NCBI GenBank assembly: GCA_024998565.1
Contig: JACOEM010000006.1
Location: forward strand, 62,001-126,000
DNA: 64,000 nucleotides
Direction: 5' to 3'
From: Nitrospira sp.
GTDB lineage: Bacteria > Nitrospirota > Nitrospiria > Nitrospirales > Nitrospiraceae
A program made the position numbers and the translations under genes. The notes under the pieces were generated by a model that was not told the origin of the DNA, made no database searches, and saw only the letters and a program-made list of their open reading frames with translations. Positions 4,196 to 6,777 of the stretch are shown here, one piece after another. The stretch's first letter is position 1; each line of letters starts with the position of its first letter.

Positions 4196-6058
4196 GTGAG
4201 CGTTCCACTTCCCTCGTCCGATCTCGATCAAACCGGACGCCATCCCAACATCAGAGGCCTGGGGCGGTTGCTCGATCATTCCCGCACCCGCACGATTTTT
4301 CTGCAAAGCCTGGTGGCCGGTATCCTCTCGTACGAATTGTTGGTCAGTAACGAGACGATCTTCGGACATCGAGTGAGCCTCCTGGTGGCCGCCGGCCTGA
4401 TCCTGGTCAGCTGCGGCATCATGCTGTTGCCGCGAACCCTCCTTGAAAGCGCCTGGTTTCCCGGCGCGCTGATCAGCATCAATACGCTGTTCGTGACGGG
4501 GACGATTTATCTCTCCGGGACCGCCAGTTCGGAGCTGTACCTCACGTATTTTCTCCTCCTCTTGATCGCCTCATCGGCCCCGTCGCTCAGGCAACTGCTT
4601 GGTCTTTCGACAGTGATTTGCGCTGGCTACGGCGTCTTGGTCTACGAACATGCGATGCAGTCGGGCGGGCTCGAAGTGGGGCATCTCTTGGGCATTCCCG
4701 TGTTGCTGATCATGTCGGTCTTTTATGGATTAACGCTTGAAACGGTCGCCACCGAACGCCGCCGTAATCGCCTGTTGCAGGAGAATGTGCAGGGATTAAG
4801 GCAGTCGGGGCAGGTGTTGGAGGAACGACGGACGCAACTCGAAACCCGCGTGCAGGGATTGAAGCAGGGGTTGTCACGTGCGAATCAGGAAATTCGCCAG
4901 GGCATGGTGGAGCGGACCGGCTTGGAGCGGCAGCTTCGCGAAGCCCAGAAGTTCGAGGCGGTCGGCCGCCTGGCCTCCAAATTGGCCAATGAGTTCAACC
5001 AGGTTTTGGCGGTGATCGGGAGTCAAACCGGAGTCATTGTCTCAAAGTTGAAACCGGATGACCCGTTGCAGCGGCCGGTGGAGGAGATTTTTCGAAGCGG
5101 GGAGCGGGCGGCCACTCTGACGGCGCAATTGCTGGCGCTACGCGTTCAGGAGACGGCGATCCGGGATACCCTGTCGCTGAGCCCGGCAATCGAGTCGATG
5201 CGGGACACGTTTGAGGCATTGCTGCCGGGTCGCATCGATTTGCGGCTGGCGAACGAGTCGATTCCGGTCCTGGTGGAGATCGGGCATGACCGCTTGGAGC
5301 AGCTGCTATTGCACCTGGTCGCCAATGCGCGCGACGCGATGCCGAAGACGGGACGGGTGGAGATCGCGCTGGAAATCGTCACCGGCGAACTCCTTCCCGC
5401 CGAGCAACTGGAAAAGAATCCCCGGAAGCGCATGGCCCGGATTGCTGTAAGCGACAACGGCGGCGGAATGAACCTGGATGTGCAATCACAAATGTTCGAG
5501 CCGTTTTTCTCCACGAAGGACACCCACGCCGGCCTGGGACTCACATTGGTATACGGGATCGTCCGGCAATACGGGGGGACGGTCGAGGTGCAGAGTCAGC
5601 CCGGGCAAGGGACGACGGTACGGGTCTACTTTCCCCTGGTTGAACGGAACGGGGTGGTGCGGGATACGAGGGTGCTCAGCGGGGCCCTCTCAAAAGGGGC
5701 CGAGACCGTGTTGCTGGTGGAGGAAGATGAAATTACCCGAAAACTGGCTTCATCGACGCTCCAGACCCATCGCTACCAGGTGTTAGAGGCGGGGTCTGCT
5801 GTCGAAGCGTTGTTGGTGGCGCAGCAGCATCCCGGGCCGATTCACCTCACGGTCAGCCATCTCTCGATGCCGGAGATCAGCGGTCGGGAGTTGGCCAAGC
5901 GCCTGGTTCTCCAACACCCCAAGATGAAGGCGTTGTTTGTGTCGGGGTTCTCGGACGACACGATCGCGAGCCATCGGGTCAATAAGAAGTATTTCCTGCA
6001 GCAGCCGTATCGGCAGCACGATCTGGCAGGAAAGATTCGTGAACTGCTGGATGTGTGA
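4196..6058 (+). CDS. Degenerate membrane hybrid histidine kinase (ATPase domain intact, phospho-acceptors missing)
   Basis: 620 residues from a GTG start. Five or six membrane helices (about 30-190) precede a coiled coil (about 195-245), then a DHp-like helix, an HATPase_c domain (about 320-475) and a C-terminal receiver (about 500-618). The ATPase motifs are intact: N-box (LVANARDAMP), G1 (DNGGGM) and G2 (GLGLTLVYGIV). The catalytic positions for phosphotransfer are not. The usual A-H-D/E-F-N of this kinase class reads A-N265-E-F-N. In the receiver the phospho-acceptor Asp (usual TDVVMP) is H555 (VSHLSMP), and the conserved Lys before Pro is Q603. The acidic pocket EEDE remains. It is probably a signalling scaffold or allosteric regulator rather than a working kinase. 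It is not clearly in an operon with its neighbours. Confidence 0.85.
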   Translation: MSVPLPSSDLDQTGRHPNIRGLGRLLDHSRTRTIFLQSLVAGILSYELLVSNETIFGHRVSLLVAAGLILVSCGIMLLPRTLLESAWFPGALISINTLFVTGTIYLSGTASSELYLTYFLLLLIASSAPSLRQLLGLSTVICAGYGVLVYEHAMQSGGLEVGHLLGIPVLLIMSVFYGLTLETVATERRRNRLLQENVQGLRQSGQVLEERRTQLETRVQGLKQGLSRANQEIRQGMVERTGLERQLREAQKFEAVGRLASKLANEFNQVLAVIGSQTGVIVSKLKPDDPLQRPVEEIFRSGERAATLTAQLLALRVQETAIRDTLSLSPAIESMRDTFEALLPGRIDLRLANESIPVLVEIGHDRLEQLLLHLVANARDAMPKTGRVEIALEIVTGELLPAEQLEKNPRKRMARIAVSDNGGGMNLDVQSQMFEPFFSTKDTHAGLGLTLVYGIVRQYGGTVEVQSQPGQGTTVRVYFPLVERNGVVRDTRVLSGALSKGAETVLLVEEDEITRKLASSTLQTHRYQVLEAGSAVEALLVAQQHPGPIHLTVSHLSMPEISGRELAKRLVLQHPKMKALFVSGFSDDTIASHRVNKKYFLQQPYRQHDLAGKIRELLDV

Positions 6059-6073: not shown

Positions 6074-6777
6074 CTAGTAGCGCCAGGATCTGGTGCGTCC
6101 GGGCGTGAAGAAGCGCACCTCCGGTCGTTTGAATAGGCCGATCAGAACCATCCCCGCAATGAATCCGCCGATGTGTGCGAAGAAGGCTACCCCTCCTCCC
6201 TGCGAACCGATGCTCGCGCCGCCGTTCAACAGCTGCATCACGAACCAGAACCCAGCACGATGCCGGCCGGCACATAGGTGGTGCCCACCACCGGGGCGAG
6301 CAGCAACACCCGGGCGTGGGGAAACAGCAGCAGATAAGCGCCCAGTACGCCGGAAATCGCGCCGCTCGCTCCCACCATCGGCACCGTGGAGGTCGGGTCG
6401 GTCAGGGCGTGGCTCAAGGCAGCCAGGACGCCGCACACCACGTAGAACACGATAAATCTTACATGGCCCATGATGTCTTCGATGTTGTTGCCGAAGACCC
6501 AGAGGTACAACATGTTGCCGATCAGGTGCATCCAACTGCCGTGCAGAAACATGCTGGTCAGCATCGTCGCGAACGCAGGCACTGCCGCGACCTCGGGCGG
6601 GAGCGTGGCGTGGCCGAAGACGACGGAGGGGATGGCGCCATATTGGTACACAAAGGCTTCGCCGGGAGCCGGGGCCAGCGAACTTTGGTAGAGGAACACG
6701 AGGCAACAGGCGGCGATGAAGGTGATGGTGACGACCGGTGTGTGTTCGGTCGGGTTATCGTCATTGAGGGGCAGCAT
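6074..6777 (-). pseudogene. Rhomboid-family intramembrane serine protease, interrupted by a frameshift
   Basis: Two overlapping reading frames together make one rhomboid protease of about 235 residues. The first frame (from 6777) carries the loop-1 region (FLHGSWMHLIGNMLYLWVFG) and the nucleophile motif GASGAISGVLGAYL. It then stops prematurely near 6238. The second frame continues with FWFVMQLLNGG and the catalytic-histidine helix AFFAHIGGFIAGM, ending at 6074. The switch falls at the CCC run at 6251-6253 (GGG on the coding strand); adding one base there would restore the frame. The family is a six-helix membrane protease cutting single-pass proteins. A sequencing or assembly error in the homopolymer is as likely as a real mutation, because both halves look well conserved. 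Confidence 0.8.

Follow-up and report, generated by a model that had tools for sequence, protein, structure and literature searches.

A probable pseudo-hybrid histidine kinase of the Nitrospiraceae with drifting phosphoacceptor sites and an invariant ATP-site core

The window analysed here, a stretch of 64,000 nucleotides, belongs to a 4.13 Mb genome whose named relatives are Nitrospira, including Candidatus Nitrospira defluvii at 97% protein identity. A gene that follows purE and purK, and faces a convergent rhomboid gene, encodes a membrane sensor that looks like a hybrid histidine kinase (Table 1). The GTG start of this gene is backed by an N terminus conserved in the orthologues of the genus, and no competing long ORF occurs on the reverse strand of the same interval. 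A promoter scan detected no sigma-70-like site, and the one weak terminator-like site that it gave after purK was not informative. The downstream rhomboid-family gene (6074-6777, reverse strand) is split over two frames (ORFs 6238-6777 and 6074-6706), whereas close relatives, L009, L041 and L042 among them, have it in one uninterrupted frame; the copy in the window appears to be frameshifted, by mutation or by assembly error.

A Pfam search of the protein recovered HATPase_c at 78 bits and Response_reg (PF00072) at 44-48 bits and did not detect HisKA, which scores 42 bits in L003, an intact paralogue encoded in the same genome. For the membrane domain the same search returned no credible family, and neither a second copy of this domain at E<=1 nor a partner sharing it was found in the genome. 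An AlphaFold2 model built with 18 close sequences of the genus reached a mean pLDDT of 45, too poor for judging the ATP pocket.

Table 1. Features of the pseudo-hybrid histidine kinase gene (positions in the window; aa, residues of the protein)
Feature	Position	Strand	Remarks
Pseudo-hybrid histidine kinase gene	4196..6058	+	620 aa, GTG start
Membrane domain, about six hydrophobic helices, aa 30-187	4283..4756	+	Helices counted by hydropathy and on a low-confidence model
Coiled-coil signalling helix, aa 191-244	4766..4927	+	Lowest dN/dS, together with the receiver
Degenerate DHp domain, aa 245-325	4928..5170	+	Below Pfam HisKA detection
Asn265 (AAT), phospho-His position	4988..4990	+	14 residue types among 103 orthologues
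Glu266, H+1 acid	4991..4993	+	Kept in 99/103 although His is not
HATPase_c domain, aa 355-486	5258..5653	+	N, G1, F and G2 boxes
Asn377, N box	5324..5326	+	Invariant, 103/103
Asp420, G1 box	5453..5455	+	Invariant, 103/103
G2 core GLGL, aa 446-449	5531..5542	+	Preceding Gly replaced; lid shortened by two relative to most paralogues
Pseudo-receiver, aa 503-618	5702..6049	+	Fewest changes per site of all domains
Glu509-Glu510 acidic pair	5720..5725	+	Second residue Pro, Ala or Val in genera g2 and g30
His555, receiver phospho-Asp position	5858..5860	+	Pro in g6, Asp in most of g30
Gln603, receiver Lys position	6002..6004	+	Arg in g2 and g30, Gln/His in g6
PYRQ motif, aa 604-607, near-invariant, after the lost Lys	6005..6016	+	Likely start of receiver helix 5

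Alignment with paralogues from the same genome revealed that the motifs ANEFNQ (265), VSHLSMP (555) and LQQPY (603) stand where the paralogues carry AHDFNN, (T/S)D(V/L/M) and (Q/P)KP, respectively, which confirmed the first-pass annotation in placing Asn265, His555 and Gln603 at the phospho-His, the receiver Asp and the receiver Lys. A shifted alignment or a displaced acceptor was rejected as an explanation: the alignment is ungapped around the sites and no other His lies within residues 258-275 of this protein, so that an error of register is excluded. The acidic pocket of the receiver, also described as normal in that annotation, is indeed acidic, but its pair is Glu509-Glu510 where the paralogues have Glu/Asp-Asp. 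At H+4, where Asn or Thr belongs to the HisKA phosphatase motif, the protein has Gln269 instead of Asn. A His at H+4 was considered as a substitute acceptor; it is present in 31/103 orthologues (g2, g30 and a few others) and absent from most, and is therefore not a conserved replacement. Most g2 and g30 orthologues (L062-L102) have this H+4 His (ANELSHL) together with a residue other than His at the normal position.

The phospho-His of an active HisKA-type hybrid kinase is thus missing from the DHp domain (Asn265; His in only 17/103 orthologues), as is the receiver set of acidic pair, Asp and Lys (Glu-Glu, His555 and Gln603). What is present instead is a PF00072 profile match in which phosphorylation-site residues are missing (His555, Gln603), that is, a pseudo-receiver, and an evolutionarily maintained histidine kinase fold from which the phospho-His is absent, that is, a pseudo-histidine kinase; both are recognised categories (PMC12632262). 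Among bacterial HisKA domains 0.9% are devoid of the His and among receivers 2.0% of the Asp (PMC12632262), so the combination of both losses in one protein is uncommon. Residue comparison strongly indicates that a normal His-Asp relay is absent within this protein, and likewise within its Nitrospiraceae orthologues.

The arrangement of purE, purK, the kinase gene and the convergent rhomboid gene recurs in almost every one of the roughly 100 orthologue stretches that carry enough flanking sequence, from several genera, and is also kept around orthologues of 35-39% identity; a locus order shared even at this distance identifies these genes as orthologues and not merely as related kinases. A match at E<=1e-90 was obtained in 106/175 genomes of the family Nitrospiraceae. 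Outside the family, an order-level sample gave matches only of the generic hybrid-kinase level, so that the family of proteins looks Nitrospiraceae-specific, as far as sampled. About 40% of the family genomes searched do not have the gene and one has a broken copy, which indicates that it is useful but dispensable, rather than essential, across the family. Inspection of 20 loci from genomes without a strong match (L172-L191) showed purK followed by rhomboid in 18, with a gap under about 1 kb and no match to the gene, a pattern that suggests repeated clean deletion; one of the 20 had no rhomboid gene within the stretch. In L185 (genome G135) a transposase-like ORF, judged by eye to resemble IS1595, and frame breaks disrupt the orthologue.

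The fates of the relay residues were followed on a 103-sequence tree obtained by quick searches under a simpler LG+G4 model, on which the parsimony counts depend. Site 265 underwent 27 parsimony changes among 14 residue types, at about the 95th percentile of sites over the 103 tips. His265 is found in 16/27 orthologues of the window's genus and in almost none outside it. The genus ancestor is reconstructed with His265 (P ~0.98), about five parsimony changes within the 27 genus sequences lead to Asn, Asp, Gln, Tyr and Leu, and a model permitting regain fits 3.6 log units better than one in which a His root loses the residue irreversibly. As 16 of these 27 orthologues have His, the window's protein lost it recently, in one of about five such events within the genus. 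The H+4 residue drifts as well (Q, H, A, E, S, T) and is non-canonical throughout the genus.

The receiver has been disabled along different routes. In the window's genus Asp is replaced by His and Lys by Gln; in g6 Asp has become Pro, and Lys has become Gln or His; in g30 the second acidic residue is Pro (or Ala/Val) and Lys is Arg, with Asp mostly kept; g2 shows the acidic and Lys changes of g30 and a variable Asp site. None of the 103 orthologues combines Asp555, Lys603 and the acidic pair, and the only one with His265 and Asp555 together is without Lys and the acidic pair. This old disablement, different from genus to genus, together with the late loss of His, contradicts the earlier proposal of a concerted loss of both acceptors. 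Nor are Asn265, His555 and Gln603 fixed among orthologues, as had been thought possible; orthologues with the normal residue do occur for His265 within the genus, but none has a complete receiver set. Asn265 therefore arose late, in the N. defluvii clade, in a protein whose receiver had long been disabled. The paralogue L003 served as control: its 30 orthologues, from nearly the same genomes, retain the receiver Asp and Lys in 30/30 and the His in 26/29. In three members of the L003 family from the genus (L215, L216 and L217), HDFNN has changed to QDFND or RDFND with the receiver Asp and Lys retained, apparently an independent loss of the phospho-His in a second hybrid kinase.

The nucleotide site has behaved differently from these drifting acceptors, and the claim that it is retained stands. 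Asn377, DxGxG and GLGL, the cores of the N, G1 and G2 boxes of the HATPase domain, are all present, and among the 103 orthologues Gly422 and Gly424 are invariant, with Gly446 and Gly448 found in 102. Calling these boxes normal is accurate for the cores and too generous for their surroundings. The first N-box Asn is His373 (CheA likewise has His at this position), the first Gly of the G2 GxGxG has been replaced in the main genera by His or Asn, and in 100/103 orthologues the ATP lid lacks two residues relative to most paralogues. Since the solved kinase ZraS has an identical lid length, the short lid alone is not evidence of a disabled site; the changes at the first G2 Gly and the first N-box Asn suggest that the protein, like DivL, may bind ATP only weakly. 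The nucleotide-site residues can also be conserved for the stability of the fold.

Pairwise Nei-Gojobori comparison within the genus, where dS is near 1 and the values are therefore approximate, gave a dN/dS of 0.077 for the whole gene, with 0.095 for the membrane domain, 0.082 for DHp and 0.065 for HATPase, and the lowest values for the receiver (0.043) and the coiled coil (0.039). Purifying selection thus acts on the pseudo-receiver and the coiled coil as well as on the nucleotide pocket. Over the 103 sequences the receiver was the most conserved domain, with 6.7 changes per site against 8.6-10.7 in the others; the conservation of this pseudo-receiver, together with the nearly fixed PYRQ stretch, would fit a role in binding. 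Such figures bear on the possibility that the gene is under relaxed constraint and slowly decaying, the acceptor residues being the first to go. Its deletion between purK and rhomboid in most of the 20 checked loci without it and the broken copy in L185 point in this direction, but a genus dN/dS of about 0.08, low in every domain, indicates a gene that is not decaying, and 56 positions, including the ATP-site core, are invariant among the 103 sequences, synteny is near-universal and none of the 27 genus copies contains an inactivating stop. Decay is accordingly the least probable of the explanations considered. The first-pass preference for selection on a pseudokinase role over decay is borne out by the invariant nucleotide residues beside drifting acceptors, the low dN/dS and the conserved locus.

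Two further explanations leave the protein a more conventional chemistry. In the His-bearing species of the genus the protein might be an active kinase that serves a separate response regulator, an activity lost recently only in the N. defluvii clade and in a few other lineages; His265 in over half of the genus orthologues, the His of the genus ancestor, the presence of the ATP boxes and an Asn codon in the window's own clade that is one base away from His (CAT/AAT) speak for it. However, five independent losses among 27 sequences in which Glu266, Asn377 and Asp420 never change, the non-canonical H+4 residue throughout the genus, and the near-absence of His outside the genus, with the gene constrained even where His is missing, make this unlikely. 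Roughly the same modest weight is given to a module that acts on a response regulator solely as a phosphatase, or that reads a phosphorylated receiver as DivL reads DivK~P, and that does not target a kinase. Pseudo-histidine kinases can keep phosphatase or response-regulator-binding roles and Glu266, the H+1 acid, is kept in 99/103 orthologues, whereas the replaced and variable H+4 Asn/Thr makes activity by the HisKA phosphatase motif unlikely but does not count against pure binding.

As relay residues are incomplete in all relatives while those of the ATP pocket barely change, the protein is most likely a non-catalytic regulator of other signalling proteins. A regulatory pseudokinase operating without phosphotransfer is judged probable, and only marginally less so the fuller description of an old, vertically kept hybrid pseudokinase with six transmembrane helices that regulates an active partner. 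That this direct partner is itself a kinase is put forward tentatively, as less likely than not, and a functional requirement for nucleotide binding is somewhat more doubtful still. Briefly, the membrane domain would sense a signal, the DHp domain and coiled coil would dimerise, and ATP or ADP bound by the HATPase domain would switch its conformation; by docking on the active partner, for which a CckA-type hybrid kinase is the likeliest candidate, DHp and the conserved pseudo-receiver would raise or lower that partner's kinase or phosphatase output.

Among known systems, CckA comes closest by sequence to the DHp-CA-REC part: CckA models gave the top matches among curated profiles, and 5idj, a structure of CckA, was the top structure match. 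The score of 256 bits lies far below the NCBIfam equivalog cut-off of 1000, and the relay residues are not intact, in contrast to CckA, which functions as a kinase and retains its His, Asp and Lys, so that the pseudokinase would derive from the CckA-type hybrid kinase class without being a CckA. RocA of group A Streptococcus has six transmembrane helices, acts through CovS and can dispense with its own His (PMC7028121); its architecture is similar, with six predicted helices and DHp and CA domains, and it signals independently of a phospho-His, as is proposed here, but it has no receiver and a CA domain missing several kinase residues, unlike the invariant ATP-site core and dead receiver found here. 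DivL of Caulobacter, which senses DivK~P, binds TNP-ATP weakly and controls CckA (PMC4211667), resembles the present protein in a phospho-His replaced within a histidine kinase fold and a loss kept across a clade. It differs in its PAS sensors, absence of a receiver, mostly fixed Tyr and weak nucleotide binding; the Nitrospira protein has a transmembrane domain, Asn265 and a receiver, and the site drifts through 14 residues in its orthologues. The receiver-like protein Osp inhibits CckA (PMC9430884), and Osp and the pseudo-receivers of ShkA and CikA have a receiver fold that regulates a kinase without a working phospho-site (PMC12632262, PMC9430884), although those of ShkA and CikA sit in proteins with a working His and Osp is a single domain. 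The CckA-like DHp-CA-REC part and the precedents of RocA, DivL and Osp together favour a membrane-tethered regulator acting on an active CckA-type kinase.

In the open-access literature we found no hybrid kinase that has lost both phosphotransfer sites across a whole family while its ATP-site core is invariant, although such a protein may still have been described, and judged by title and abstract the papers retrieved for a Nitrospira pseudokinase were all on other subjects. Few bacterial pseudo-histidine kinases have been characterised, and in DivL and RocA the nucleotide site is lost or weakened. A more specific proposal, which we hold to be rather improbable, is an allosteric receptor reading ATP/ADP, in which the Bergerat pocket would sense nucleotide and the pseudo-receiver would pass the output to an active kinase, giving nitrifiers a receptor kept family-wide without a phosphotransfer step. 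Taken together, about 100 orthologues at one locus, with drifting acceptors and a fixed ATP-site core, provide a natural comparison that separates the ATP pocket from phosphotransfer, and since the receiver is disabled differently by genus and His-bearing and His-less versions occur in one genus, a role of the kinase fold without phosphotransfer is directly testable in this family.
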